Shown piece by piece: positions 49,535 through 63,967 of a stretch of 64,000 nucleotides of DNA (within the stretch, counting starts at the first letter, position 1; each line of letters opens with the position of its first letter). The position numbers and the translations under genes were made by a program. The notes under the pieces were generated by a model. That model saw nothing but the letters and a program-made list of their open reading frames with translations. It was not told the DNA's origin and searched no databases. The stretch lies in contig NZ_JAIUMR010000002.1 in assembly GCF_022565475.1 (NCBI RefSeq), forward strand, positions 248,001 through 312,000, written 5' to 3'. Origin of the DNA: Aliidiomarina sp. GTDB taxonomy: Bacteria; Pseudomonadota; Gammaproteobacteria; Enterobacterales; Alteromonadaceae.

Positions 49535-50497
49535 ATGGTCGATTTTTGGCAACGAAAGCTAGCACTGAAAACGTTCATCATGGCATTAGCGATAATGCTC
49601 GTCACAGCGTGTGGTAAACGCGATCGCGACACCACCAATCTTGTCGGGAATTCATGGTTAGGTTATCAACCATTCTATTTACAGCACCATCTACACCGTG
49701 AACAACAACCGTCAGACATTAGCGTAACCATGCTAATGTCTGACGTTAGTGTTATTCGCATGCTCACCAATGAAGCCGCTGGGGCGGCTATGCTGAGCCT
49801 CGATAACGCCATCGCCTTGCAAAGTCTGACGGCATTAGATCTCTGTGTTGCCTTGGTGATGTCGCATTCTGTTGGTGCCGATGCAATTTTGCTGCACCCG
49901 AATTTCGTTAGCTATCTTGACTCCGAGGAACCAATTCGCGTGGGCATGGAAGACAGTGCTCTGTCTCGCTATATGCTTTCACGCTGGCTCGAACATACGC
50001 AAATTGACCCACGCCGGATTGAGCGTCGTATCGTCTTACCTAACACGCACCTCGATGAGTTTGCACGGGGCAACTTCGATGTGGTGGTCGCCTACGCACC
50101 TTTTGCCCAGCGTCTCGAACAATTGGGCGCAACCGCTATTTTCACTAGCCTCGATATCCCCAATGAAATTGTCGATATCGTCGTCGTTCGTCAGCAGGTG
50201 TGGCAGCGCGAACGCGATAAGTTACTGGCTCTGGTTACTCGCAGTTGGGATCAAGCACTTGCGGCGCTGCAAACACAAGAACTGCAGACCATGAAATACC
50301 TTGAGATTTTGACCGAACTTGATGGGCAACAGCTGCAAACTGTGATGGGCTTAGTGCAGTTCTACACCGCCGATGAAAGTCGCGTCGCTTTGGTCTCAGA
50401 CTATCCCCAATGGTTTGCCACGGTTGCGGAAAACTTAGTCAAAGCTGGAGTGCAACAAGTTACGCGCGACCTACCTGTTTGTGATGGTGTGTTATGA
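49535..50497 (+). CDS. NMT1/THI5-like binding lipoprotein paired with a c-di-GMP sensor
   Basis: A 320-aa predicted lipoprotein with a type II signal peptide and lipobox MLVTAC (Cys26). The mature part follows the NitT/TauT/THI5 binding-protein pattern: NSWLGYQPFYL, MLMSDVSVIRMLTNEAAGAAMLSLD, SVGADAILLHP, and DVVVAYAPFAQRLEQLGA. These proteins bind small ligands such as pyrimidines, sulfonates or nitrate, usually for an ABC transporter. Here there is no permease or ATPase gene; its stop overlaps by four bases the start of a membrane GGDEF-EAL protein with a periplasmic domain. I infer that the lipoprotein presents a ligand to that sensor. Confidence 0.8.
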   Translation: MVDFWQRKLALKTFIMALAIMLVTACGKRDRDTTNLVGNSWLGYQPFYLQHHLHREQQPSDISVTMLMSDVSVIRMLTNEAAGAAMLSLDNAIALQSLTALDLCVALVMSHSVGADAILLHPNFVSYLDSEEPIRVGMEDSALSRYMLSRWLEHTQIDPRRIERRIVLPNTHLDEFARGNFDVVVAYAPFAQRLEQLGATAIFTSLDIPNEIVDIVVVRQQVWQRERDKLLALVTRSWDQALAALQTQELQTMKYLEILTELDGQQLQTVMGLVQFYTADESRVALVSDYPQWFATVAENLVKAGVQQVTRDLPVCDGVL

Positions 50498-52932
50498 GAA
50501 GACTACCGCTGTGGCAACGGCTTAGTGTGCAAATCACGGTACCGATTCTGTTGCTCATTACGCTGTCATTTATGAGCATGACGTACTTTTTATCGCGTGA
50601 TCAACAAGCCGATGCCTATGCGCGCGCTGAAATCGAATTGCGCTCGATGTTAGTGGTCGCCCAAGGCTCACTGAATCGAATTATGTCGCTTGACCGCCCC
50701 GACTCCGTTGCTGAAATACTTAGCGAGATGTACGTCCATCCGCGGATTCGTAATGCTGCAATTATCGACTCAGATTTTCAACTGATGCACTATTATGTTG
50801 TCAATCAAATACGTCCTGAGTTGCAAAAGTTTGTTGGCGAGTTATCTCACGAAGCTTTAGGTAGAGCTTTTCAGACAGGAATGACCATTATTGAGTATCA
50901 CCCGGAGCATAAACACTTTCTGGCACTGGTGCCAATATTACCCGGGGCCGTTCTTGATGCGGGGCTTACCCGCAATGTGTTGGTGCTCGAGTATGCGTAT
51001 GACCATGAAGCAATTGGCTTACATACCTTTGATGTTCGCGATAACCTGCTGATCTTCGGCCTTCTCGTCGGTCTCGGTTTCTTACTGTGGTTAGGCTTGT
51101 ATCTTGGTGTAAACCGACCGATTCGGGCGATGGTGCAAGCCTCCTCTCAGCTCGCGCAGCGCCAACCGATCAGTATAACATTAAGTAAGCGTTATTATAA
51201 CGAGCTCGGTGTACTCTCGCGGGCGCTGCAAAAGGCTGCAAAAGCTAGGGATCGCTATGAGCGAGACTTGCAGCGGCTTTCCAGTGCAGTAGAGCAAAGC
51301 AGCGACAGTATATTGATTACCGACCTAGACGGCAAAATCGAGTATGTGAACCAAGCGTTTTTAGAAAGCACGGGCTATTCTCGGGTCGAACTGATTGGCG
51401 AGAACCCAAATGTATTGGCGTCTGGACGCACGCCAGCGGCCACCTATGAAAGTTTATGGCAGACATTGCGAGCAGGAGAAACCTGGCGTGGGGAATTGTT
51501 TAATCAAACACGTGACGGAACTGAATTACGCGAATGGGTGACGATTTCTCCCTTGCGCAATGAGCACGGTGAAATCAATTATTATCTAGCGACGAAGCAG
51601 AATATCACCGAGAAACGCGCTTCCGAGGAACGGATTCATTTTCTTGCTTATTTTGACCAATTAACGGGGCTCGCCAATCGAGCATTAATAAAAGACCTGC
51701 TCGATCAGTTTATTGCGGAAGGTTCGAAAAGCCATCAGGGCGCAATTCTTCTGTTTGATTTAGACGGTATGCAACGTCTCAATGATGTGCGTGGTTTTGA
51801 GTTTGGTGATCAAGCGTTACTGACCGTCAGTGAGCGTCTTAAACGCGGGATTGACGGCTTTCATGGGGCGCAGCTTGGCAACCTCGGCGGTGATTTATTT
51901 GTCGTGTTGCTGCCACCGAAATTTCCTTGCCAGGAGGTAAATCGTATTGCCGGCGACCTCGCTGAACGCTTGTTGGCCAGTATCGCGGAGCCGATGTCCA
52001 TTAATGACGAGCCAGTGACACTGACCGCCAGCGCCGGATTAATTTATTACCCACATGCGCAAACGAATGCAGAGGAACTGTTGCGGTACACAGAGACGGC
52101 CGTGTTTAAATCGAAACAGGCGGGTGGTAATCGCTGCACAGCCTATAGCGCAGATCTCAGCGCAGAAATTGAAACTCATTTTAACATTGACCGAGATCTG
52201 CGTGCAGCAATCGGTACCGAGCAACTGCAACTTTACGTTCAGCCAAAACATTTAGTGACCGGCGAAATGGTTGGTGTGGAAGTTCTGTGTCGGTGGCAGC
52301 ATCCAGAGCGCGGCTTTATTCCGCCAGATGTCTTTATCGCGGTTGCCGAAAAGTCTTCGTTAATCGTTAAACTCGGAGATTGGATTCAAGCGGAATCACT
52401 GCGCTTACTGGCAAACTTGCCAGCGCCCCTGAATTTAGCCTTAAACATTAGTCCTCGGCAGTTCCGTCAGGAAGAATTTTCGACGCGATTGCAACAAGAT
52501 CTTGAGTTGTCGGGTGCCGATCCGAAACGATTAACCATTGAGGTGACTGAAAACCTGCTCTTGGATGATGTCCATGCGGTGAGTGCAAAAATGCGCGAAT
52601 TAAGTCGCCGTGGTATTGAGTTCTCCATTGATGATTTCGGTACCGGCTACTCGTCACTGAGTTACTTGAGTGACTTACCTCTGCAAGAGCTAAAAATTGA
52701 TCGCCATTTTGTTATGGGCATTGGCAATCCGCGCCAAGAAAAAATTGTCGACATGGTTATTTCAATGAGCGAGCACATGAATCTTCGCGTTGTCGCAGAA
52801 GGTGTCGAAACGAAAGAGCAGGTTGACTACCTGCTCGCCGAGTCTCCGCAAATCATTTGCCAAGGCTACTATTTCTCGAAGCCGTTGCCGGTTCAAAATT
52901 TATCAGATTATATACACCATACTATGTCTTGA
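50494..52932 (+). CDS. HAMP-PAS-GGDEF-EAL membrane sensor, likely c-di-GMP phosphodiesterase
   Basis: An 812-aa inner-membrane regulator. Membrane span about 13-33, periplasmic domain about 34-185, second span about 186-210, HAMP about 211-262, PAS about 265-385 (LITDLDGKIEYVNQAFLEST), GGDEF about 390-555 and EAL about 560-805. The GGDEF signature is NLGGDLF: the catalytic Glu is lost, so it is probably not a cyclase. The EAL domain reads EVLCRW (Ala to Val, tolerated in other enzymes) and keeps EVTENLL, SIDDFGTGYSSL, KIDRHF and AEGVET, so hydrolysis of c-di-GMP is expected. It overlaps by four bases the lipoprotein gene upstream, likely its ligand-binding partner. Confidence 0.9.
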   Translation: MRRLPLWQRLSVQITVPILLLITLSFMSMTYFLSRDQQADAYARAEIELRSMLVVAQGSLNRIMSLDRPDSVAEILSEMYVHPRIRNAAIIDSDFQLMHYYVVNQIRPELQKFVGELSHEALGRAFQTGMTIIEYHPEHKHFLALVPILPGAVLDAGLTRNVLVLEYAYDHEAIGLHTFDVRDNLLIFGLLVGLGFLLWLGLYLGVNRPIRAMVQASSQLAQRQPISITLSKRYYNELGVLSRALQKAAKARDRYERDLQRLSSAVEQSSDSILITDLDGKIEYVNQAFLESTGYSRVELIGENPNVLASGRTPAATYESLWQTLRAGETWRGELFNQTRDGTELREWVTISPLRNEHGEINYYLATKQNITEKRASEERIHFLAYFDQLTGLANRALIKDLLDQFIAEGSKSHQGAILLFDLDGMQRLNDVRGFEFGDQALLTVSERLKRGIDGFHGAQLGNLGGDLFVVLLPPKFPCQEVNRIAGDLAERLLASIAEPMSINDEPVTLTASAGLIYYPHAQTNAEELLRYTETAVFKSKQAGGNRCTAYSADLSAEIETHFNIDRDLRAAIGTEQLQLYVQPKHLVTGEMVGVEVLCRWQHPERGFIPPDVFIAVAEKSSLIVKLGDWIQAESLRLLANLPAPLNLALNISPRQFRQEEFSTRLQQDLELSGADPKRLTIEVTENLLLDDVHAVSAKMRELSRRGIEFSIDDFGTGYSSLSYLSDLPLQELKIDRHFVMGIGNPRQEKIVDMVISMSEHMNLRVVAEGVETKEQVDYLLAESPQIICQGYYFSKPLPVQNLSDYIHHTMS

Positions 52933-52942
52933 TTAGTGAGGC

Positions 52943-54136
52943 TTACCTTCGAGTTTCTTTAGCTGCTTGGAACGTCGGTAACGCCATAGCTTGACCTTGA
53001 GCGACAACGTGTCTACCACGACTCCAGACATGCTCGACTTTTAAAGTCTTGCTCTCCATTAAGACAATATCGGCATCATAGTTTGGTACAAGTCGACCTT
53101 TGCGTTTCAAGCCCAAGTATCGAGCTGCATTTGTACTAACAGCGTGCGCCGCAACTGGAAGACTGATGTTGTAGTCGAGTACGGCGCTGACGAAAGCAGA
53201 GTATAGGCTACTCACTCTCCCGACTTGCAGTCCAACTAAGTTTCCGTGTTTATCAAAATCAGGCAGGCTTGCGTTCCCGTCAGAACTGAACGAGATTTGT
53301 TTAAAGTCTAATCCGTCCTCTAAGGCAGTGGCCAATGCGTGAGCAGCAGTGAGTTCTCCTTGAGAGACCAGTTCTGGAGTGGTACTGGCGGTAACATCGA
53401 GTACCACCCCATTCTTTGCGAGATCGTAACCATTGCGAAGTAGCTCAACTGAGCGGTTCATGTGCGTTGGATAGAACTGCGTTACCGGAACTGGATAGTT
53501 TTGAATAACCTGCCGAATCAAATCTAGTTTTTCACGGCCCTCACCAACATGCAGGAAAACGATGCCTCGCTTTCCTGCAAGCATACCTCCAACTCGAGCG
53601 TCGGAAGCAAGGCGAGCAAGTTCGTGCATACTCGGGTGAGATCCACGATGATCGGCAATAGCGACCTCACCGACACCGATGAATTTATCAATCAATAAAA
53701 TGTCTTCGCGCACGGAACTAAGTACGGTTTTTACCGGAAATTCATAAGAGCCTGTGTAGCAATAGACAGAGACTCCTTCATGATCCAACGCATGCGCTTT
53801 TGCCAGAAGATCCGGCAAGCTGCGTGTTGTTGCGTCGGTTCCAAGACCGGCAACTAGTGTTGTAACACCATATAAAATTGCTTCCGTGAGTTCCATCTCC
53901 GGTGTTCGTGTGTGAAATCCACCTTCACCGCCACCACCAGTAATATGGGCCAACGGGTCTACGAATCCCGGTAACGCAATCATTCCGTTTGCGTCAATTA
54001 ATGTTACGTTAACTCCTATCGAAGAGAGCGAAATAGCTGATCCGATAGCAGCGATGCGTCCATCGCAGATGAGAATATCTTGGTAGCCTACATCTTCCGG
54101 CGCAAATACGTGCGCGTTCTTAATTAAAGTGAGCAT
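52943..54136 (-). CDS. iadA: Isoaspartyl (beta-aspartyl) dipeptidase
   Basis: Amidohydrolase-fold enzyme of 397 aa that cleaves beta-aspartyl dipeptides. The signature GGGGEGGFHTRTPEM (Glu71) is that of IadA. Expected metal ligands: His64, Glu157 (Lys in E. coli), His196 (FLHVGEG), His225 (PTHMNR) and Asp286 (SSDGNAS) are present. The first histidine of the HxH motif is a leucine here (VDPLAH; Leu62), where E. coli has VDQHVH. It is four bases downstream of a permease gene and in the same operon as a TonB receptor, opposite a secreted cyanophycinase whose product, beta-Asp-Arg, is a substrate type for this family. I infer the final, cytoplasmic step of cyanophycin use. Confidence 0.9.
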   Translation of the reverse strand: MLTLIKNAHVFAPEDVGYQDILICDGRIAAIGSAISLSSIGVNVTLIDANGMIALPGFVDPLAHITGGGGEGGFHTRTPEMELTEAILYGVTTLVAGLGTDATTRSLPDLLAKAHALDHEGVSVYCYTGSYEFPVKTVLSSVREDILLIDKFIGVGEVAIADHRGSHPSMHELARLASDARVGGMLAGKRGIVFLHVGEGREKLDLIRQVIQNYPVPVTQFYPTHMNRSVELLRNGYDLAKNGVVLDVTASTTPELVSQGELTAAHALATALEDGLDFKQISFSSDGNASLPDFDKHGNLVGLQVGRVSSLYSAFVSAVLDYNISLPVAAHAVSTNAARYLGLKRKGRLVPNYDADIVLMESKTLKVEHVWSRGRHVVAQGQAMALPTFQAAKETRR

Positions 54137-54140
54137 GGGT

Positions 54141-55595
54141 TTAATATCCTATGAGAACGGCGATAATGACAAAGGCAGTTGCCATGCCTGCGAGGAGCAA
54201 TTGAAACTTCCATATAGCTTTCAACCAACTCGCCCAATCGAGCTTGACTGCACCAAGACAGCCGATTAATGCTGCGGATGTAGGAACAATGATATTAGTA
54301 AGACCATCACCAAGCTGAAATGCAAGTACTGCGGTTTGACGACTAATTCCAACTAAGTCTGCCAAAGGTGCCATGATCGGCATCGTTAATGCCGCTTGCC
54401 CCGAGCCCGAAGTCATAAAGAAGTTAAACGTGCCTTGAAAAAATAACATACTGACTGCTGCAAATGGTTCAGTAAGTTGTCCTAATCCATTTCCAGCAAA
54501 GTGTAATATGGTATTTAGAGTAGATGGCTCTGTTGGTTCATTGCCGCCAAGGACAAGTATAATTCCTTTCGCGAAGCCGACAATTAGTGCCGCTGGTAAT
54601 AGGTCTTGAGCTCCTCGAACAAAAGCTTGGGACATAGTATTAGCAGAGAATCTGCGGCCGACAACAGCAACGATGCCAATAATTATGCCGATCACGAAGA
54701 ACTGACTAGCGAGTTCTGGAATGTAGTAACCGCGAGCGACCACTCCCCAAATTACCCAAACGAGGCCCAAGCTAAACAGACTTAGAATGACAATATCGAG
54801 TCGAGTAAACGAGATTTCGGGGGCCATTTTATCCGTGTCCGCCGCTGAGAGGTGAGGCGTTGGCGAACGATGTCTAGCTGCATAGCACAACGTAAAACCA
54901 ATACCAATGCTCGTGAGAAAAAACCATAGAAGCATACGATAGCCTGCACCAGACAGAAGCGGAACGTCAGCTATTCCCTGCGCAATTGCGACGCTGAATG
55001 GATTCATCCAAGAAGTGGCGAATCCAATTTGAGTCGCGACATATGTAACCAGAACGACTGTGACTTTATCGTATCCAAGCTTGGTCATGACGGGTAGTAA
55101 TACCAGGCAGAATGCAATTGCTTCCTCGCCCATCCCAAAGATCGCTCCTCCAAGTGAAAACACAGTAAAGATCAGAATTAAAAAAATTTGTTGGTAACTT
55201 TGAGTGCGTTGAATCAGAGTTAATATACCCCGTTCAACACTTGACGTTTGAACTATAATTCCGAAAGCTCCCCCGACAATTAAAATGAAAGCCATCACAC
55301 CAATAGCGCTGCCCCATTTTGTTCCCGACACAAGGCCTTCAAAAGGAATATTCGCGACACCAATTTCACCACCTTCTGCAAACCATGGTAAGGATGGCTG
55401 CCGTTCGGCCGATTGGTATGAATCCGGTATAAGAACCTCGCGAGATTGCACACCTTGAGATGTTTCTTGCTCTATGATCGCAGTACTAAAGTTACCAGCA
55501 GGAATGGTCCAATTTAGAACCACTGCTAACATAGCGACAAAAAACAAGATAACGAAAGTGTCAGGCACGCGCGAATGATTGGCCTGCTGAGTCAT
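54141..55595 (-). CDS. YfcC-family permease (C4-dicarboxylate carrier superfamily)
   Basis: Inner-membrane protein of 484 aa with about 12 hydrophobic spans. NWTIPAGNFS near the N-terminus, GGAFGIIVQTSSVERGI, GMGEEAIAFCLVLLPVM and GDGLTNIIVPTSAALIGCL are characteristic of the YfcC/DcuC-like group. E. coli YfcC has no firm substrate; other members are proposed to carry peptides, arginine/ornithine or dicarboxylates. Between a TonB receptor and a beta-aspartyl dipeptidase, import of beta-Asp-Arg dipeptides is the natural inference. Start ATG 55595 follows GAGGTAAG. Confidence 0.85.
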   Translation of the reverse strand: MTQQANHSRVPDTFVILFFVAMLAVVLNWTIPAGNFSTAIIEQETSQGVQSREVLIPDSYQSAERQPSLPWFAEGGEIGVANIPFEGLVSGTKWGSAIGVMAFILIVGGAFGIIVQTSSVERGILTLIQRTQSYQQIFLILIFTVFSLGGAIFGMGEEAIAFCLVLLPVMTKLGYDKVTVVLVTYVATQIGFATSWMNPFSVAIAQGIADVPLLSGAGYRMLLWFFLTSIGIGFTLCYAARHRSPTPHLSAADTDKMAPEISFTRLDIVILSLFSLGLVWVIWGVVARGYYIPELASQFFVIGIIIGIVAVVGRRFSANTMSQAFVRGAQDLLPAALIVGFAKGIILVLGGNEPTEPSTLNTILHFAGNGLGQLTEPFAAVSMLFFQGTFNFFMTSGSGQAALTMPIMAPLADLVGISRQTAVLAFQLGDGLTNIIVPTSAALIGCLGAVKLDWASWLKAIWKFQLLLAGMATAFVIIAVLIGY

Positions 55596-55634
55596 TACAA
55601 CTTACCTCGATGTCGTATGGCGGACTATGAATCT

Positions 55635-55660
55635 GCGAGGACCACGGGAGTGGTCCCCGC
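55635..55660 (-). terminator. Intercistronic hairpin between TonB receptor and permease genes
   Basis: On the minus-strand RNA an 11-bp stem (one G-U pair) with a UCCC tetraloop lies eight bases after the TonB receptor stop codon. No U run follows. It may be a partial terminator or an mRNA-stabilising end that keeps receptor mRNA higher than that of the downstream genes. Confidence 0.6.
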
Positions 55661-55667
55661 GATACAT

Positions 55668-58439
55668 TTAAAAACGATATGTCGCGCTTAAGCGATAGTA
55701 ACGACCCATCGTATCATGATTGAAGTGATCGACATTGGCGCTTGTTCCATAAGCAAACGGAGCTTGACGATCGAATAAGTTCTCAACGTTAAATCTCAAT
55801 GTTAGGTTTTCACTCAGATCATAGCCTAAGGTTGCATTGACTTTCGTCCAGCTGGGGACTTTTCGGTCGGCACTAATTCCAAGTCGCTCTAAGTCAGCTA
55901 CCCGGAATGCTTCGATATCGTCGTCATATCCACTTGTATATTGGATGCGAATGTTACCGAACCAATCATCGCGACTCCAACGCAGAGTATTAGTCAACAC
56001 CGTACGCGGATAGCGAAAACTGCCTGCTAACTGTTCAACATCTGCGTTCTGTGAGAGTTGGCGATCGAACTTTAACAGAACGGTTAAATCGACTAACCAT
56101 GTAAAACGTGCCACACCGTCAATATCGAAATAATGGGTGTAAGTTGCATCAATACCGCGCGTTTTCTGTGTACCAAGGTTCTCGAGTTGCAAGTGAACAT
56201 CTCCAGCGAGTCGGCTCGTTACGATGCCAACGCCGTTTGCATCACATTCTTCGAAGCCAATACCTTGACTTACTGTCGCTGGTAATTCACCGCAGAAGCG
56301 TAGACTAGGATCACTAAGGCTTCGTCTTAACAAAAATTCACCATCGACACCAACAATATTTTTGTGATCAAACTGCCAGTAATCCATAGTAAGCGTAATG
56401 TCGCGATTCACACTCCAAGCGAAACCCGCGCTGAAAGACTCAGAATCTTCCGCTTCTAAATTTTCGTTACCGAACACTTTGGTTAGAATATTGGTTTCAA
56501 TCTGTGTTTCGCCGCAATAGTTTCCTCGAAACTCATCTTTACACTCTAGGTTAAATGAGCTGAGTGTGATTTCAGCTCCAACTTGACTCAATGACGGAGC
56601 GCGAAATGATTGAGCCCAAGATGCGCGAGTAATGAAGTCGTCGGTTACTTGATAGCGTAGGCCAATTTTAGGATTAAATTCACCGCCAAAGTCGTCATAG
56701 TAATCGTAACGGCCAGCGATTTGAGCATCTAATTTTTCGGAAATCGGTACGAATAATTCAGCGAATGCAGCCCATTGACTCCGACTCGCTCGCGCTCCAG
56801 TAGAGCCGAACCCAATTACTCCCGGAGTGTAATTGTTTTCGAAGGTACCTCGCGCTAATGGATCTGGTGTGTCGGTCACCTCCTCGCGACGAGCTTCAAT
56901 ACCCACCGCAGCGGCTAGCGTGCCGTGAGAAAGCTCATATAGATCACCCGAGGTTCTAAAATCGATACTGTATAACTTTGAGAGCCCGTTTCGTGGTAAC
57001 TGCTCTTGCAGAAGATCTAAGACTTCAGAAGAATTTTCTGCTTGGCCACCAAATGGGTTGTACCATAGTCCGCCACTGCTTGGACTACAGGAAATGCTGC
57101 CGTCAGCGCATAGTTCACCAAATAGAGCTGCTTCAAAACGACTTCGATTATAGATGCCGGCTTCAGCGCGCTGCTCAGATCGCGATTCAGAGTATGTTCC
57201 GGCGGCTTCCCAGAACCAGCTACCCCAATTCCCCTCTAAACCGGAAACCAATCGTAAACTTTCGGTTTCGTTACTGATCGTGCGGCCGACAGGAAAACGG
57301 CCCCATCCGCGAATTTCTCCGAGCGGAGCTTCACCAATAGAATCCCAAAGATCGAGGAAGCGGTCGCGAAGCTCAGCCGGCATATTTGGATGGTCAAAGG
57401 CTACGTCATAACCGCTCCACGGCGCGGCCGTCGAGTTACTTGTGGCTTTGGTTTGGGTATACATGAATTCGTTAAACCAAGTCACTGAATCAAATTGATG
57501 CGTCAACATGAAGCCGGTGCCGATAGACTCTAGCGCAGTATAGGTGGGCATCACTGCATTTTGGTTATATTCGCAGTACTCACCAAAACTACCAACGTTA
57601 GCTAGCTCAGCAGGGCAGGTTGCTTCAACATAATCGTCATCATCAAAAAAACGAGTATTCCAACTCGGATAGATTCCTTGCTGACTTGGAAAAAAGCTAT
57701 TGGCTGTGCGACTACGATCGCGGTCAAAAAGTGGCTTTCGATCGTAATAGTCGAAAAATACAGTTACATTGGTGTCATTAAAGTTTCGGCCCGCAATTAT
57801 GTTTACATTTGCTTTCCCGTCGTCAGAACTTGCTTCTGAATTGCCGTAACTAACCGAAACTTCTGCACCTTCAAAATCACGTCGCAGAATGTAATTGATT
57901 ACGCCTGCGATGGCATCGGCGCCATAGGTTGCAGAGGCTCCGGTGGCAAGAATGTCAATTCGTTCAATTGCAGATAATGGGATGGAATTGATATCGACGA
58001 AGTTCTCAAAATTATTGGCAAATGAGCTTCCGCTCACGCGCCGGCCGTTAACTAGTGTAAGTGTTGAGGATGCTCCGAGACCGCGCAATGATGCTGCGGC
58101 TTGACCGACGGGCGAGTCCCCTTGCAATGCACCGCTGGCAAAGGTTGAAAAGCTTCCTTCACCGCCGCGAGTTTGGCCGACTTCACGAAGTAATTCGCTT
58201 ACAGTTGTCGCCGATGAGTTTCTGATATCGTCTTCACCAATTGATATCAATGGCTGAGCGCCTTCAAGATCGACGCCTCGTATTTGAGAACCGGTTACGA
58301 GAATCCTTTCGACACGTTCACTAGGTGGAGTTACTTCCTCTGCTTCACTTTCGTCATTCGCCCACGCTGAGTTCATCGCTAATACGAGAGCTGAAACTGT
58401 GAATCCAAGAGTTGGTTTTAATATTGTGTGGTTTTTCAT
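55668..58439 (-). CDS. Large TonB-dependent receptor, predicted peptide/cyanophycin-product uptake
   Basis: Outer-membrane receptor of 923 aa. The signal peptide ends NSAWA|ND. A TonB box (VERILVTGSQIRG, about 43-55) and a plug domain follow (about 60-185, LVNGRRVSGSS and GASATYGADAIAGVINYIL). The large barrel ends in YRLSATYRF. This is the long, xanthomonad/alteromonad type often used for carbohydrates or peptides rather than a siderophore type. Start ATG 58439 has AGAGG upstream. It heads an operon with a YfcC permease and isoaspartyl dipeptidase and is divergent from a cyanophycinase, so its cargo is probably cyanophycin fragments (inference). Confidence 0.88.
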   Translation of the reverse strand: MKNHTILKPTLGFTVSALVLAMNSAWANDESEAEEVTPPSERVERILVTGSQIRGVDLEGAQPLISIGEDDIRNSSATTVSELLREVGQTRGGEGSFSTFASGALQGDSPVGQAAASLRGLGASSTLTLVNGRRVSGSSFANNFENFVDINSIPLSAIERIDILATGASATYGADAIAGVINYILRRDFEGAEVSVSYGNSEASSDDGKANVNIIAGRNFNDTNVTVFFDYYDRKPLFDRDRSRTANSFFPSQQGIYPSWNTRFFDDDDYVEATCPAELANVGSFGEYCEYNQNAVMPTYTALESIGTGFMLTHQFDSVTWFNEFMYTQTKATSNSTAAPWSGYDVAFDHPNMPAELRDRFLDLWDSIGEAPLGEIRGWGRFPVGRTISNETESLRLVSGLEGNWGSWFWEAAGTYSESRSEQRAEAGIYNRSRFEAALFGELCADGSISCSPSSGGLWYNPFGGQAENSSEVLDLLQEQLPRNGLSKLYSIDFRTSGDLYELSHGTLAAAVGIEARREEVTDTPDPLARGTFENNYTPGVIGFGSTGARASRSQWAAFAELFVPISEKLDAQIAGRYDYYDDFGGEFNPKIGLRYQVTDDFITRASWAQSFRAPSLSQVGAEITLSSFNLECKDEFRGNYCGETQIETNILTKVFGNENLEAEDSESFSAGFAWSVNRDITLTMDYWQFDHKNIVGVDGEFLLRRSLSDPSLRFCGELPATVSQGIGFEECDANGVGIVTSRLAGDVHLQLENLGTQKTRGIDATYTHYFDIDGVARFTWLVDLTVLLKFDRQLSQNADVEQLAGSFRYPRTVLTNTLRWSRDDWFGNIRIQYTSGYDDDIEAFRVADLERLGISADRKVPSWTKVNATLGYDLSENLTLRFNVENLFDRQAPFAYGTSANVDHFNHDTMGRYYRLSATYRF

Positions 58440-58930
58440 ATCAAACCTCTGGCAATTCTGATGAATCGCTGCTTCGGGTTAAAAAACCTGAGGGTGCCAG
58501 CGATGTCATGATTAAGAATGCGTGTCATCGATGGATTACAGCGCGAAGTACACGAGGACGCATCCAGGACAACAAGAAACTAATTGCTAAAACTAAACAA
58601 CGATAGAATTGCGGATGTTCGAGCATTGGGCACGAGCAGGCCGCGGTAAAAAAGGTGTTTACCAGCGGTTCTTCCTATTCGTTCCACCACTCGGAGAGGT
58701 AGTAACTCCGATAATGATAGCTAGATAATTTTGCTGCCTTCTTCAACATGGTGTTGATAAATTCTCGCTATCTCAAAGTTTAACAAGCTCACGTCATCTT
58801 GTTTGGACAAGTAGACTGAAATGAGCGTTGACTTATTTAAAGATTTAGCATTAGTTTTAAAAAGAGTCAACATAAGTAGATTTTTTGTTATCACAACAAG
58901 CGATTGTGTCGTTAATATTCGGAGTAAGCA
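58440..58930. promoter_or_regulatory. Divergent control region (491 bp) of the cyanophycin locus
   Basis: No conserved gene is seen. A short inverted repeat CGGGTTAAAAAACCTG lies at 58475-58490 in the leader of the TonB receptor gene and could bind a regulator. Two small open frames exist: 37 codons on the plus strand (58615-58728) and 50 codons on the minus strand (58873-58721). Neither has a ribosome site. The stretch is AT-rich near the cyanophycinase start. Promoters of both divergent units must lie here, but I cannot fix them confidently. No regulator gene is in the locus. Confidence 0.5.
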
Positions 58931-60622
58931 GTGAGCAGAGTTATTATTCGTTTTTGGATTGCCGTTGTCACTTTAGGGCTATTGTGTTGGGAAATGTTCC
59001 CAGCTCACGCCAAATCAGAAGGTGAGATTCCAGAGCAGTGGAATTTGATGCTTGTTGGTGGCTCCATGAATACGTGTTCAAGCATGTCATTGCGTCGCTG
59101 TAAAGAGACCGATTGGGTTGACCCTGCGACGATGAGAACGGAGATGAATGTTGATTTAAGTGGTGACCGCTTAGCAGGTTTGCTTGCTAGTCCACTTTGG
59201 CAACGCGATCCTGAAACTGAACAGGAAATCGCTCAAACGCTCACGCGTATATCCCGGCATTTCGGCGAAGAGATAGTGAGTTTGTCGGGTTTTAGGCGCT
59301 TTTTCGCTGAACTTTATCCGAGTCTTTGGCGCGCGCTGACTACTGAACAGTGGCAGGCTATTCGTGACTATTTACAAGCTGCAGAAAGAGCATCGGTTAG
59401 CGAACTCAGTCAACTTGAGTTAAGTGTCGAACGACACGGGGCAGAACTTTTTCATACATTTGCCCAACGTGCGACAGAAATTGCGCAAGCCGAAGGAGAA
59501 GCCCCTCTTGTATTAGTTGTCACTGCCTCTGGAAGAGATAGCTTCGATGCGGTTGATTTCTATATTAGTAGTTTTTCTCAAACAGGTGTCAATGTTGAAT
59601 GGTTGCCGATTGACGCTGCATTTGCGCAGGCGGTGTTTAGTAGTCAATGTGAAAACCTTGCGGGTTTGAGAGCTCAATACCAGCATGCATATGATCGTGA
59701 GCGTGTGTTTCCTTGGCTTGCCGAGTTTCAGTCTGAGTTTTGTTCGCAGCCTGAGAAACTCATAACTCTCATTGATCGTGCCCACGGGATATTTATCAAC
59801 GGGGGCGACCAAAGCTTAACGCGTCAGTCTTTTATTTTATCTAATGGTTCTGAGTCTGCTTGGCTAAAACGTATTCGGGAACGTTTGCAGGAAGGTAAGA
59901 TGATCGTTGGGGGCACGAGTGCAGGAACGGCGGTGATGACTGAAGCTGCAATGATTTCAAACGGAAGTAGCAGGGCAGCTCTAAAATATGGCGCTTTTGC
60001 CATAGCGAAACCTCCAGCAGCTGATTGCGAAGAGCTGAACCAGTGCAAAAAAGCTCCGGTAGCAGATGCATTGGCGTATCACCCAGAAGGTGGGATAGGT
60101 TTTTATGAATTTGGGCTCCTCGACACTCATTTCTCAGAGCGAGGTCGTCAGGCCCGCTTGCTTCAGCTTCTAGTTGATAGCAAGGCCAACTTAGCTGCAG
60201 GAATAGACGAAACTACTGCATTACTTGTAAACAGTCGAACAGGCGATTTTTGGGTTCAGGGTGCGAATGGCGTTTATCTGTTAGCGCAGGGAGAAAGAAC
60301 TAAAGGTAGTCTAACTGGCCGATTTGCATATCTTCGAGATGGCACTCGCGGAAGGCTGAGTCTCAATGGTAATTTAGTTACTGAGTTACACTTTTCAGAG
60401 GAACAGAAGCATAAAACTGTCGAATCGGAGTTATCAAATTTTTTGCGAGATCGCTCAATAACCGCTGCATTGCAGAAGTGTTCAGAGCAAATTCTTTACT
60501 ATGATGAAAATGAAGATGTGCAAGTGATTCTTGCGAGTGATCAATTTACAAATATTGCTCATGCGGATAGCCGCTGTGAAATAGTTTGGGGAATTATTCA
60601 TTATCAATCGATTGGGCGTTGA
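58931..60622 (+). CDS. Secreted cyanophycinase (peptidase family S51)
   Basis: Serine exopeptidase of 563 aa that releases beta-Asp-Arg dipeptides from cyanophycin. GTG 58931 follows CGGAG by seven bases. A signal peptide (about 1-27, ending PAHA|KS) sends it out of the cytoplasm; no lipobox. All cyanophycinase active-site elements are present: NGGDQ (Gln294), GGTSAGTAVM (nucleophile Ser330), DTHFSERGRQARL (His400) and GIDETTA (Glu427). These distinguish it from the related peptidase E. A mostly helical stretch of about 120 residues (about 55-180) separates the first strand LMLVGGSM from LVLVVTAS and is longer than in cyanobacterial CphB. No cyanophycin synthetase is in the window, so a degradative, scavenging role is likely. 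Confidence 0.92.
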   Translation: MSRVIIRFWIAVVTLGLLCWEMFPAHAKSEGEIPEQWNLMLVGGSMNTCSSMSLRRCKETDWVDPATMRTEMNVDLSGDRLAGLLASPLWQRDPETEQEIAQTLTRISRHFGEEIVSLSGFRRFFAELYPSLWRALTTEQWQAIRDYLQAAERASVSELSQLELSVERHGAELFHTFAQRATEIAQAEGEAPLVLVVTASGRDSFDAVDFYISSFSQTGVNVEWLPIDAAFAQAVFSSQCENLAGLRAQYQHAYDRERVFPWLAEFQSEFCSQPEKLITLIDRAHGIFINGGDQSLTRQSFILSNGSESAWLKRIRERLQEGKMIVGGTSAGTAVMTEAAMISNGSSRAALKYGAFAIAKPPAADCEELNQCKKAPVADALAYHPEGGIGFYEFGLLDTHFSERGRQARLLQLLVDSKANLAAGIDETTALLVNSRTGDFWVQGANGVYLLAQGERTKGSLTGRFAYLRDGTRGRLSLNGNLVTELHFSEEQKHKTVESELSNFLRDRSITAALQKCSEQILYYDENEDVQVILASDQFTNIAHADSRCEIVWGIIHYQSIGR

Positions 60623-60647
60623 ATGCATTCGCCTTGGAAGCCCAAAC

Positions 60648-60675
60648 TTGCAAAGCAATCGCAATTCGTTATACT
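60648..60675 (+). promoter_or_regulatory. Candidate sigma70 promoter of the thiamine operon
   Basis: TTGCAA (60648-60653), a 16-base spacer and TATACT (60670-60675) lie about 30 bases before the TPP aptamer. Confidence 0.65.
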
Positions 60676-60705
60676 GCGGCCGCTGCAGTGAAATACTGAC
60701 AGCAA

Positions 60706-60806
60706 ATTACCAAAGGGGTGCCTCGCTTTAATCCAAAGTGCGGCTGAGATACGTGTGTGAACCCTTTGCACCTGATCCGGTTAATACTGGCGTAGGGATT
60801 GGTAAT
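60706..60806 (+). ncRNA. TPP (THI-box) riboswitch
   Basis: The conserved thiamine pyrophosphate aptamer is clear: GGGGTGCC, then GGCTGAGATA, ACCCTTTGCACCTGATCCGG, and TTAATACTGGCGTAGGGA, in order. The closing P1 helix is ATTACCAA (60706-60713) with TTGGTAAT (60799-60806). It precedes a thiamine uptake operon, so high TPP should switch expression off. The downstream platform (60866-60908) has no T run, which points to translational rather than transcriptional control. Confidence 0.97.
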
Positions 60807-60865
60807 GAACATCTGTAATCGCTTTGCTCACTCGACCCTGATTACACACCCACCAATTTACGCAG

Positions 60866-60908
60866 AACCGGATCTCATTCTTTATTTTGTATTAGGAAGA
60901 AGAGATCC
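60866..60908 (+). promoter_or_regulatory. Riboswitch expression platform: SD-sequestering hairpin with competing anti-sequestor
   Basis: GGATCTC (60870-60876) pairs with GAGATCC (60902-60908), enclosing and covering the AGGAAGAAGAG ribosome-site region before ATG 60912. The overlapping AACCGGATC (60866-60874) is a perfect 9-bp complement of GATCCGGTT (60774-60782) in the aptamer core. The two pairings exclude each other, the usual logic of an on/off switch. The structure is read from sequence; its use is inference. Confidence 0.75.
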
Positions 60909-60911
60909 AGC

Positions 60912-63008
60912 ATGAAACTAAATCCAATAACCATTGCTTTGTTGACCGCTATTGCTATGCCCGCTGTGGCAGAAGAGGCAAGTGAAAAGTCAATTGAGCG
61001 CATCACTGTGCAGGGAGAATTCCGCAGTCGCGGCATTGAAGACGTGGCAGCGAGTGTTTCTGTATTGAGCGGTGACGATCTTCGCCAACGTCAAGCGGAA
61101 CACCTTGAGGCGGCTTTGCTCATGGCCCCAAATGTGAACTTAGCTGCGGGTGCGTCGCGTGCCAGCTTTGTCCAGATTCGCGGCATCGGTGAACGCAGTC
61201 AATTTGTCGATCCAATCAATCCGTCGGTCGGCCTCCTACTCGACGGTATCAACTATAGTGGCCTAGGCTCCGCTGGTATTCTTTTTGATATCGGCCAAGT
61301 TGAAGTATTCCGTGGACCGCAAAGCACGCGGTTTGGCGCTGACGCCATGGCTGGCATGATTTACATGAGCAGTACAGCGCTCGATGCTGATCCAAACGGT
61401 GTCCTTGAAGCCATGGTAGCCAACTACAATAGTCGCAGCCTTGGCCTCGCTTACGGTAGCGCCGTGAATCAGGATTTGGTTTGGCGTGGCTCGTTATTTG
61501 GCTATCAAAGTGACGGCTTCATTGAAAACATTCACTTGCAACGCAAAGACACCCAAAACCAAGACGAAATCACGCTGCGCTTGAATGCTCATTGGCAACT
61601 CAATGACCAATGGTCTGCAGACTTCACCTACCACCACTTTAATCTGGATAACGGCTATGACGCGTGGAGTCTCGACCGCAATCGCCAAACCTTGTCAGAC
61701 ACGCCGGGCAAAGACACCCTCGACAGTCATGCCGGCCGCGTTGCCCTTCGTTACTTGAGCGATCAGGGTTACGAATTACAGCTCATGACCAGTTACTTAA
61801 CCGCTGACTCAGAGTATAGTTTTGATGAAGATTGGGCCTTCGAAGGTATTCGTCCCGGCTGGGAATACAACTCCTGGGATGCTTATTATCGTGAGCGTGA
61901 TCAACTTGAATTAGAAGCGCGCATACTCTCAGCACAGCCACTCATGGCTGGTCGCATAGCAACCGATTGGCTCTTGGGTGTGTACCGCCAAGAGCGGACA
62001 CAAGATCTGGATCGCGATTATACCTATTTAAGTGCGCCGTTTAGCAGCCAATATGACACCGAGCGTACGGCTGTGTATGGTGAGTTACAGCAACAATTGA
62101 ACGAACGCCTGCGCTTAACCTATGGCGTCCGTTGGGAGCGCTACGATAATGACTACCGCGACAGTCGCGGTATTACGTCTGCCCCACAGGATGATGCTTG
62201 GGGCGGTCGCGTCAGCTTAGAGTATCAACTGGCACCGATGCGAACTGTCTATACCTCACTGACACGTGGCTTTAAAGGTGGTGGTGTAAACGGCGAAGCT
62301 TTAGGTCGGGTGGAAGATCGCAATCTTGAAGATCATCGTGAGTTTTTGCAGTCACGCGCGACGTTCGACTCGGAGTATTTGACCAACTTCGAAGTTGGCT
62401 ACAAAGCATTTTTGCCGGAACAAAGTGTGTCGCTGCAACTGAATGCTTTTTACAGCTGGCGCGATGACATGCAAGTGAATGCCTATGTCGAGCGCAACGC
62501 GGTCTTCGTCACTTATATGGATAATGCCTCGGACGGCACTAACTATGGTATCGAAGCTCAACTTGACTGGGTAGCAAACGATGCTTTGCGTCTATTCGTC
62601 AACCTCGGTTGGTTAGAAACTGAGTTTAATGACTTAGTGTTACGCGATGGTACCAATTTGCGCGGTCGTGCGCAGGCGCATGCGCCAAATTGGCAACTGC
62701 ATCTGGGTGGTGAGTACTCACTTCCGCAGAACTGGTTGTTACGTTTGGAGCTTGATGGTCGTGATAAATTCTATTATTCCAACAGTCATGATCAACAGTC
62801 ATCTTCGTATGGGCTTGTTCATGCGCGTCTAAGCAAAACGCATAACCAGTGGGAATTCAGTCTTTGGGCACGTAATTTATTCGACAAAGACTATACGACC
62901 CGCGGTTTCTATTTCGGCAATGATCCACGTAAAGATTACGTTGCCGAAAATTACATTCAATTCGGTGAACCGCGTCGCTTCGGCGTTACCGCGCGTTATC
63001 GTTTCTAA
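60912..63008 (+). CDS. TonB-dependent thiamine receptor (OMR1-like)
   Basis: Outer-membrane receptor of 698 aa. A signal peptide (ending MPAVA|EE), TonB box (IERITVQGEF), plug (about 35-150, SVSVLSGDDLRQRQAEHLE, RGPQSTRFGADAMAGMIYM) and a barrel ending GVTARYRF are visible. A TPP riboswitch directly upstream and a PnuT permease downstream assign it to thiamine (or a thiamine precursor) uptake across the outer membrane; such riboswitch-linked receptors were described by comparative genomics in Alteromonadales. The riboswitch hairpin probably controls its start. Confidence 0.9.
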   Translation: MKLNPITIALLTAIAMPAVAEEASEKSIERITVQGEFRSRGIEDVAASVSVLSGDDLRQRQAEHLEAALLMAPNVNLAAGASRASFVQIRGIGERSQFVDPINPSVGLLLDGINYSGLGSAGILFDIGQVEVFRGPQSTRFGADAMAGMIYMSSTALDADPNGVLEAMVANYNSRSLGLAYGSAVNQDLVWRGSLFGYQSDGFIENIHLQRKDTQNQDEITLRLNAHWQLNDQWSADFTYHHFNLDNGYDAWSLDRNRQTLSDTPGKDTLDSHAGRVALRYLSDQGYELQLMTSYLTADSEYSFDEDWAFEGIRPGWEYNSWDAYYRERDQLELEARILSAQPLMAGRIATDWLLGVYRQERTQDLDRDYTYLSAPFSSQYDTERTAVYGELQQQLNERLRLTYGVRWERYDNDYRDSRGITSAPQDDAWGGRVSLEYQLAPMRTVYTSLTRGFKGGGVNGEALGRVEDRNLEDHREFLQSRATFDSEYLTNFEVGYKAFLPEQSVSLQLNAFYSWRDDMQVNAYVERNAVFVTYMDNASDGTNYGIEAQLDWVANDALRLFVNLGWLETEFNDLVLRDGTNLRGRAQAHAPNWQLHLGGEYSLPQNWLLRLELDGRDKFYYSNSHDQQSSSYGLVHARLSKTHNQWEFSLWARNLFDKDYTTRGFYFGNDPRKDYVAENYIQFGEPRRFGVTARYRF

Positions 63009-63018
63009 CTAAGCAGTA

Positions 63019-63056
63019 GGGGCAGGGTGTAAGAGTGAGAGCTTGCACTCTGCCCC
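63019..63056 (+). terminator. Intercistronic hairpin after the thiamine receptor
   Basis: GGGGCAGGGTG (63019-63029) pairs with CACTCTGCCCC (63046-63056), 11 bp with one wobble and a 16-base loop, followed by only CTTTC. It probably reduces read-through to, or separates the stability of, the next two genes. Confidence 0.6.
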
Positions 63057-63075
63057 CTTTCAAGAGGACCGTACG

Positions 63076-63330
63076 ATGCAGTTATCCGCAGAAATTAGTT
63101 TGTATCCATTAGCCGTCGAATACCGGGAAATTATTGGCGAATTTGTCGAACGTCTGGCGCAATACGACGAGCTGACCGTCAATACGAATACCATGAGCAC
63201 TCAGATTTTTGGCGACTACCGGACATTGATGGCGATTCTAACCGACGAACTTGAACGGGTTTATCAACAGGTGCCGTCACAAGTGTTGGTCTGTAAGTTT
63301 ATTAATCGAGATTTAAATCCGAATGGATAA
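63076..63330 (+). CDS. Small YkoF-like thiamine-binding protein
   Basis: An 84-aa protein with no signal peptide. ATG 63076 follows AGAGGA; the frame opens at 63043 inside the hairpin. The pattern LSAEISLYPLAVEYREIIGEF and TVNTNTMSTQIFGDYRTLM resembles the YkoF/thiamine-binding (COG0011-like) ferredoxin-fold domain, which binds thiamine or its pyrimidine. Its position in a TPP-riboswitch operon, overlapping the PnuT gene by eight bases, supports a cytoplasmic thiamine-binding or chaperone role next to the permease. Family assignment is moderate; context is strong. Confidence 0.78.
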   Translation: MQLSAEISLYPLAVEYREIIGEFVERLAQYDELTVNTNTMSTQIFGDYRTLMAILTDELERVYQQVPSQVLVCKFINRDLNPNG

Positions 63331-63967
63331 GTTACTCAGCCTTCTGGCGTTGTCGTCGACGGCGGAGCTTATTGCCGTCGGCATGGCGGTTGCCTATGTT
63401 CTACTGGCGATTCGCCAAAGTCTGTGGTGCTGGCCAGCAGCGGTGATCAGTGCCAGTATTTATACCGTGCTATTTTTTCAAGGCCGGCTCTATATGGAAA
63501 CCTTGCTACAGGTTTTTTATGTGGTCATGGCGGTCTATGGGTATTGGTCTTGGCGTTATAGTCCAGCGGCCAAACATGGGCAAACAGGCCAGCTACCGAT
63601 TCGCAGTCAAACGTGGCAATGGCACCTGCAATGGGGGCTGGTTCTTCTTCCTTTAAGTCTAGCAATTGCGTGGTTGTTACAACGCTACACCGATGCGGAT
63701 TTTGCCTATCTTGACTCGATCACAACGGTGTTTAGCTTCTTTGCGACGTTCTTGGTCGCGAGAAAACTCCTAGAAAACTGGCTTTATTGGATAGTAATTG
63801 ATTTACTATACGTGGGCTTGTTTTGGTTCAAAGGCTTTCATGCGACCTCGATCTTATTTGCGGTTTATACCGTGATGGCGACTATAGGTTATTTTAAATG
63901 GCGCCAAGCACTGAAAGACGAGCACGAGAACAAAACCGACATGCGCATGGAAACGGTTGCAGAATAG
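63323..63967 (+). CDS. pnuT: PnuC-family thiamine transporter PnuT
   Basis: Inner-membrane facilitator of 214 aa with about seven hydrophobic spans. RQSLWCWPAAVISASIYTVL, MAVYGYWSWR and ENWLYWIVIDLLYVGLFWFKG are PnuC-family hallmarks. PnuC members carry nicotinamide riboside, riboflavin (PnuX) or thiamine (PnuT); the TPP riboswitch and OMR1-like receptor upstream indicate thiamine. After entry thiamine would be trapped by phosphorylation; a kinase gene such as a thiamine pyrophosphokinase may follow beyond the window. ATG 63323 overlaps the preceding gene. Confidence 0.92.
   Translation: MDKLLSLLALSSTAELIAVGMAVAYVLLAIRQSLWCWPAAVISASIYTVLFFQGRLYMETLLQVFYVVMAVYGYWSWRYSPAAKHGQTGQLPIRSQTWQWHLQWGLVLLPLSLAIAWLLQRYTDADFAYLDSITTVFSFFATFLVARKLLENWLYWIVIDLLYVGLFWFKGFHATSILFAVYTVMATIGYFKWRQALKDEHENKTDMRMETVAE

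Follow-up and report, generated by a model that had tools for sequence, protein, structure and literature searches.

A probable cyanophycin-scavenging locus of Aliidiomarina with a conserved 24-codon upstream reading frame and an isoaspartyl dipeptidase of the LxH type

Cyanophycin is a nitrogen store of many cyanobacteria. Here we describe, at positions 52943-60622 of a 64,000-nucleotide stretch of Aliidiomarina sp. DNA (hereafter the window, positions 248001-312000 of contig C2 of genome G000, an assembly of 2.73 Mb that is 95.6% complete), a locus of an Idiomarinaceae-type gammaproteobacterium that, by its sequence, probably serves to scavenge cyanophycin. A gene for a cyanophycinase lies divergent from three genes for a TonB-dependent receptor (TBDT), a YfcC permease and an IadA-type isoaspartyl dipeptidase. 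This four-gene locus had been proposed in an earlier reading made from the letters of the DNA (the sequence-only reading), and its open reading frame (ORF) coordinates and divergent arrangement were both confirmed. To that reading we add an altered motif in the dipeptidase and a 24-codon ORF ahead of the receptor gene, here called the leader. The features are as follows.

52943..54136, minus strand: IadA-type isoaspartyl dipeptidase of the glutamate-bridged kind, with L62-x-H64 in place of HxH; cytoplasmic, as no signal peptide is seen by eye
53951..53953, minus strand: codon of Leu62, where other IadAs have the first His of their HxH motif (from the IadA comparison)
54141..55595, minus strand: YfcC/DcuC-family inner-membrane permease (NF008611 match), putative beta-Asp-Arg importer
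55668..58439, minus strand: TBDT (Plug and TonB_dep_Rec barrel), putative outer-membrane importer of cyanophycin dipeptides or oligomers
58440..58674, minus strand: leader-TBDT spacer of 235 nt, candidate Rho-utilisation region by its excess of C over G
58641..58668, minus strand: predicted hairpin, a few bases 3' of the leader stop codon (folding z-scores)
58675..58749, minus strand: 24-codon ORF with stop TAG, encoding a conserved leader peptide or microprotein (motif and coding signature)
58843..58870, minus strand: promoter-like TTGACT-N17-TAAAT upstream of the leader, a loose match
58931..60622, plus strand: putatively secreted CphE-type cyanophycinase, peptidase family S51, GTG start, with a Sec-type N-terminus by eye

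In the pathway that we propose, a Sec-exported serine exopeptidase of the CphE type would cut foreign cyanophycin outside the inner membrane to beta-Asp-Arg; the receptor would import dipeptides or short oligomers through the outer membrane, YfcC would move them through the inner one, and the IadA variant would split the dipeptides to Asp and Arg. From the sequence one can read to which families the genes belong, which catalytic residues are present, that the divergent layout is conserved and that no cyanophycin synthetase exceeds its cut-off; from this context we infer the substrate of receptor and permease, the direction of transport and secretion to the outside. The outside-to-inside cyanophycin pathway of the sequence-only reading gains from the CphE signature, the eight conserved cysteines, the layout and the absence of a synthetase above cut-off, whereas its assignments of receptor and permease stay inferential.

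Family searches with Pfam and NCBIfam bore out the assignments of IadA (a full-length TIGR01975 match of 461.8 bits, above the cut-off of 331.25), of YfcC (631.7 bits to NF008611, 'putative basic amino acid antiporter YfcC', above the cut-off of 500), of the receptor (Plug and TonB_dep_Rec barrel domains in the Pfam search) and of the S51 peptidase (Peptidase_S51, 31.0 against 23.9), but the cyanophycinase stayed under the cut-off of its equivalog, TIGR02069. Structure searches matched YfcC to no solved structure at E<=0.01 and returned only generic receptors for the TBDT.

The alignment of the cyanophycinase to CphB (3en0) covers both motif regions and places the triad S330, H400 and E427 in GXSXG, DxH and DE motifs, with pocket residues Q294, D398, R404, R406 and R409 at the positions of CphB Gln101, Asp172, Arg178, Arg180 and Arg183; triad and pocket are invariant in 18 aligned proteins. 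In this alignment the CphB triad members Ser132, His174 and Glu201 correspond to S330, H400 and E427, respectively. The sequence-only reading had credited the enzyme with all active-site residues, which holds for triad and pocket in their CphE form, but T399, likewise invariant in the 18 proteins, stands where CphB has Gln173. According to the available part of PMC3235067, from which CphB Ser132 and the pocket numbering are also taken, extracellular CphE carries the same Thr in place of Gln173, and the CphE enzymes of Pseudomonas anguilliseptica and P. alcaligenes share with the window enzyme the Ser-His-Glu triad and the pocket residues; they have a Sec signal, for which the window enzyme has a candidate by eye. 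The comparison with CphE covered these reported residues, and the CphEal gene in that part of the paper has 1260 bp compared with 563 residues for the window enzyme.

Other features of this protein point the same way. Its structural model (mean pLDDT 88.3) retrieved cyanophycinases 7uqw (E 1.4e-13) and 3en0 at the top of the PDB matches, with PepE-type dipeptidases ranking later (1fy2, E 9.2e-7). The N-terminus appears by eye to be of the Sec type, the model has a helix at residues 2-20, and of 21 homologues 20 or all 21 retain each of eight cysteines, which might be expected of an exported protein. The same genome encodes GspD of a type II secretion system, at 541.7 bits against 351.35.

In addition, every one of the 17 genomes of the genus has another S51 homologue that looks secreted (L053:8715-10403, at about 111.7-113.4 kb of C2 in the window's own genome, and L212-L227). 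In this pseudo-cyanophycinase the catalytic Ser and His are replaced in 17/17 genomes and the Glu in 16/17. Its neighbourhood is shared, one nearby gene family being common to the 17 loci and a second to 16 of them, and a GGDEF-EAL gene lies upstream in 2 of the 17.

The arrangement of the locus is conserved. Among 58 genomes, the window's own included, 29 had a cyanophycinase homologue at E<=1e-10; nineteen relatives were fetched for such a homologue, and nine further genomes, all of the genus, had only the distant paralogue. The sequence-only reading had proposed a check of the neighbourhood across relatives, and in 15 of the 19 all four genes were found, the cyanophycinase gene running divergently from the rest, a layout that is therefore far from chance. 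Two of the remaining relatives (L050 and L051) retain only a cyanophycinase homologue that has lost the catalytic Ser motif. Within the genus the locus is carried by 8 of 17 genomes. Matches to the TBDT at E<=1e-100 occurred in 23 of the 58 genomes, and the 17 strongest were those of the genomes with the locus. The sequence-only reading had named, as a refutation, relatives with receptor and permease but with a different substrate gene in place of a cyanophycinase; the receptor matches bear on this in part, the six relatives with weaker TBDT homologues (34-37% identity) having no locus-type match. Among the best 80 of 350 relatives in a wider contig scan, the genera bearing the locus were Aliidiomarina, Idiomarina, Alteromonas, Shewanella, Pseudoalteromonas, Colwellia and others.

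As the sequence-only reading had stated, no cyanophycin synthetase was found above cut-off in the window's own genome at its 95.6% completeness (best 161.4 bits against 850). A clustered cyanophycinase, isoaspartyl dipeptidase and transporter in a genome without cphA1 are the marks of a scavenging locus, and all are present. Genome G020 carries a synthesis operon (CphA 1125.6 bits, CphB 279.6 bits and the HxH IadA L184) in addition to a scavenging locus with an LxH IadA (L047), which indicates that the two pathways are separate.

On the far side of the cyanophycinase gene, a thiamin pyrophosphate (TPP) riboswitch at 60704-60815 (74.4 bits) lies ahead of a second receptor gene, TBDT2 (60912-63008), and a PnuC-like gene (63323-63967). 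These two genes were rejected as members of the locus, given the riboswitch that precedes TBDT2, and they flank the locus in only 3 of the 19 fetched relatives. The unit probably serves thiamin uptake, separately from the cyanophycin locus.

The dipeptidase is unusual. In place of HxH it has L62-A-H64, so that the first His is missing. Leu62 is present in 16/16 locus IadAs, and E157, H196, H225, D286, E71, Y131, R164 and R228 are invariant in 12 aligned IadAs. The model retrieved IadA as its top PDB matches, 1ybq first with a TM-score of 0.92 by target. A tree of 98 IadAs placed 52 LxH rows on one side of a single branch (support 96/83; 97% of 200 bootstrap trees) with Leu in all 52; in this analysis the column of the trait itself was retained and long branches were flagged. 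With Leu62 in every locus IadA and a single clade, we rejected sequencing error and single-genome decay as its source.

We compared loci from the contig scan after duplicates had been removed and the first set added, giving 49 LxH and 39 HxH loci with the window excluded. LxH rows are favoured in these numbers because one of the two peptide patterns used in the scan contains the LxH motif. Counting genes inside the fetched stretch, 45 of the LxH loci had YfcC, TBDT and cyanophycinase, one had YfcC and cyanophycinase, two had YfcC only and one had none of these; L106 ends at a contig edge. In the 45 full loci the layout departs from the rule in L129, with the cyanophycinase on the same strand, and in L092, with a displaced TBDT. 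The HxH loci had YfcC in 23 cases and neither a TBDT nor a cyanophycinase in any; these rows are mostly of Bacillota, which have no outer membrane, and the missing TBDT is therefore not independent evidence. A better contrast comes from L183-L189, seven HxH IadAs found within the same order. Two of these, L184 and L185, adjoin a cyanophycin synthetase and CphB, both of which pass their cut-offs, and L186 and L189 resemble them by gene sizes and starts alone. The same order also contains two LxH IadAs without the locus (L181 and L182). LxH was consequently rejected as a cyanophycin-specific mark, given that L116 has YfcC only and that L090, L181 and L182 have none of the locus genes. As an observation apart, the LxH IadA genes at L181:8191-9917 and L090:9995-11733 directly precede an MsrA-like gene (identified by eye), with no cyanophycinase nearby, a pairing that possibly serves protein repair.

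Does the LxH enzyme still split dipeptides? It is quite unlikely, in our estimate, that the clade has lost this activity and taken another role such as binding, although the Leu in 52/52 rows would speak for such a loss, as would the His at this position in FiBAP, CpsIadA and LmIadA, whose known structures were compared with one relative. The E. coli enzyme uses both HxH histidines as metal ligands. All the remaining active-site residues are retained in the clade, and the window's own genome holds no second IadA above cut-off. The available part of Park et al. (PMC5517026) lists His73, Glu166, Asp293, His205 and His234 as the zinc ligands of CpsIadA; all have counterparts in the window enzyme (H64, E157, D286, H196 and H225, respectively), and the lost His corresponds to CpsIadA His71, which is outside that list. 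Because the listed ligands are retained and the lost His is unlisted, the LxH IadA is likely to be active, its first metal site being altered. We also considered, and rejected, a new metal ligand that might make up for the lost His: the only positions at >=95% in LxH and <=20% in HxH IadAs were V59, L62, G73, L98 and S284. In fold, bridging glutamate and substrate residues the enzyme resembles the Type I (Glu) IadAs CpsIadA, LmIadA and FiBAP, as described in the available parts of PMC5517026, PMC10206079 and PMC7774594, and differs from them in having LxH where they have HxH.

Several findings weigh against the scavenging reading. The cyanophycinase scored 100.9 bits with TIGR02069, below the cut-off of 126.6, whereas intracellular CphB homologues reached 279.6 (L184) and 270.2 bits (L185). 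The locus of L044 lacks an IadA, L048 has a lone intact cyanophycinase, and the 23 YfcC-IadA pairs of the HxH loci, all without a cyanophycinase, indicate that the YfcC family is not cyanophycin-specific. These pairs could also suggest that the locus scavenges isoaspartyl peptides in general, such as those of aged protein, with cyanophycin as one substrate among several. The promiscuity of IadA enzymes, including those of cyanophycin clusters (available parts of PMC10206079 and PMC5517026), would agree with a general role, as would L090 and L181 beside their MsrA-like gene and without other locus genes. We nevertheless regard it as unlikely, since the sole putatively secreted hydrolase of the locus has the full CphE pocket and a cyanophycinase is present in 46 of 49 LxH loci. 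In L044, a 543-residue ORF on the same strand after YfcC (L044:14523-16154) appears by eye to encode a serine hydrolase of the beta-lactamase type and could be a replacement dipeptidase.

The second addition to the locus came from an alignment of eight divergent intergenic regions, which revealed a conserved block that corresponds to a 24-codon ORF on the TBDT strand (MLKKAAKLSSYHYRSYYLSEWWNE in the window). A search with short peptide motifs in 54 regions upstream of the TBDT recovered the ORF together with its start codon in 53; in the other, L105, AAA stands in the start position. A DNA pattern that fixes parts of codons 17-24 found the ORF in 54/54, with no region dropped. These make 45 distinct ORFs, 44 of which start with ATG. 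Residues Y17, L18, S19, E20 and W21 are present in all 45, and conservation ends at the stop codon. In 15 representatives less than 75% identical, codons 17-24 showed 0.119, 0.081 and 0.474 differences per site at codon positions 1, 2 and 3, and the 24 nt past the stop showed 0.71-0.72. Free third positions and conservation that ends at the stop are the mark of a translated sequence. The leader is a short ORF upstream of the operon with a conserved C-terminus and a coding signature. It is also specific to the locus: the DNA pattern matched 16 of the 58 genomes, once each and in every case in the interval from cyanophycinase to TBDT, whereas the reversed pattern, used as a control, matched none. 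The only locus genome that it missed (G046) has a leader ending in Asn. In a class-wide draw the pattern occurred in 2 of 369 genomes, the window's own and G403, in which cyanophycinase and TBDT are next to the match.

Codon usage at the end of the leader is skewed. The 45 stop codons are TAG in 33 cases, TAA in 12 and TGA in none, compared with 27, 109 and 37, respectively, among 173 ends of locus genes, and Asp23 is encoded by GAC in 36 of 37 leaders against 34% GAC among the Asp codons of locus genes. Downstream, the spacer between leader and TBDT has a median length of 155 nt and contains more C than G in 41/43 cases, compared with 20/44 stretches upstream of the leader and 12/28 TBDT-YfcC spacers. 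A hairpin is predicted directly 3' of the leader stop, with a mean z of -1.89 over 43 loci (controls -0.46 and -0.36) and z below -1.5 in 13 of 15 representatives. Its start position is only mildly enriched, at 37/43 versus 26/45. Upstream, a promoter-like match was seen in 25 of 45 loci. The TTGACT-N17-TAAAT of the window falls in a conserved block of the eight aligned regions; a promoter scan of 58300-59050 did not list it.

These features permit a tentative reading, which we hold at slightly less than even confidence, that the ORF is a regulatory arrest leader resembling TnaC and SpeFL, in which a ribosome stalled at the stop codon would keep Rho off the C-rich spacer. On sensing arginine, ornithine or beta-Asp-Arg as a product of breakdown, the nascent chain would stall the ribosome, and the protected transcript would allow expression of TBDT, YfcC and IadA. 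In the available parts of PMC8429421 and PMC7815308, the ribosome stalled on TnaC, a leader of 24 residues, blocks the access of Rho to a site immediately past the stop codon, and SpeFL inhibits RF1-mediated release in response to ornithine. The window shares with these systems a short ORF before a catabolic-transport operon, a conserved C-terminus, a spacer ahead of the first structural gene and, putatively, Rho control (same parts of both papers); the likeness is one of plan alone, and no kinship of sequence is claimed.

A somewhat doubtful but serious alternative is that the 24-residue product works as a microprotein, for example as a partner of receptor or permease. Amino-acid conservation runs from start to stop codon with free third positions and the ORF accompanies the TBDT in 54/54 cases, both of which would suit a microprotein. 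Conservation strongest at the C-terminus, stops of TAG and TAA only, the preference for GAC and the C-rich spacer, however, suggest translation-linked control. Moreover, the leader matched nothing in Pfam, NCBIfam or Rfam and has no hydrophobic segment by eye, and no transcription-factor gene was recognised among the ORFs at 49535-63967, six of which were scanned for families. The shared plan with TnaC and SpeFL, RF1 stops in 45/45 leaders, an operon for an arginine polymer and the lack of a recognised regulator lead us to favour the arrest leader over the microprotein.

Other observations count against an arrest leader. A Shine-Dalgarno-like tetramer precedes the leader in only 6 of 45 cases in the interval searched, the sequence indicates no ligand, and the stop and codon counts are not independent by descent (the 15 representatives have 10 TAG and 5 TAA). 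The hairpin is not unique to the leader, given that TBDT stops bear equally stable ones (mean z -2.22, 45 TBDTs). A hairpin conserved by covariation was rejected, RNAalifold having found none in the Idiomarinaceae and Alteromonadaceae sets and three pairs in a mixed set, and four Shewanella-type rows having shown no two-sided change. An intrinsic attenuator after the leader was likewise rejected, terminator-like sites being present in 5 of 43 spacers where mononucleotide shuffles gave 1.5. The stable hairpins after the TBDT stop codon lie at the TBDT-YfcC junction (55596-55667 in the window, and in relatives), where they perhaps give more receptor than permease from one transcript.

The scavenging reading is itself not new, since cyanophycin utilization loci have been published, as has a TBDT near a cyanophycinase in the alphaproteobacterium Citromicrobium. 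Ben Hania et al. 2017 (via the available part of PMC10206079) described a cyanophycin utilization locus in a Bacteroidetes strain; like the window, such loci bring together iadA with genes for a cyanophycinase and a transporter where the genome lacks cphA1, and are ascribed to scavenging, and that part of the paper makes no mention of a TBDT, a YfcC permease, an LxH IadA or a leader ORF. In Citromicrobium sp. JLT1363 (available part of PMC3400609) the receptor adjoins a cyanophycinase and cyanophycin was proposed as the TBDT substrate, with no mention there of a permease, IadA or leader. The leader ORF and the LxH clade look new within the literature searched, the check for the leader having covered open-licence papers and the examined parts of the IadA literature containing no description of the clade.

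The uptake of cyanophycin after cyanobacterial lysis, by whom and how, has been little tested, and the locus offers a defined receptor-permease-enzyme route in culturable genera. With one match per genome, always at the locus, among the 58 genomes, the leader motif offers a convenient marker by which such loci can be found, and the LxH clade can serve to test which share of the two-zinc site dipeptide splitting requires. It is doubtful, though it may be the case, that the leader is a new nascent-chain sensor in which stalling at an RF1 stop on a cyanophycin product spares the TBDT-YfcC-IadA transcript from Rho. If so, polymer scavenging in Alteromonadales-type gammaproteobacteria would be switched by a leader peptide instead of a dedicated regulator protein, in a locus whose isoaspartyl dipeptidase would, in addition, be of a distinct LxH class.

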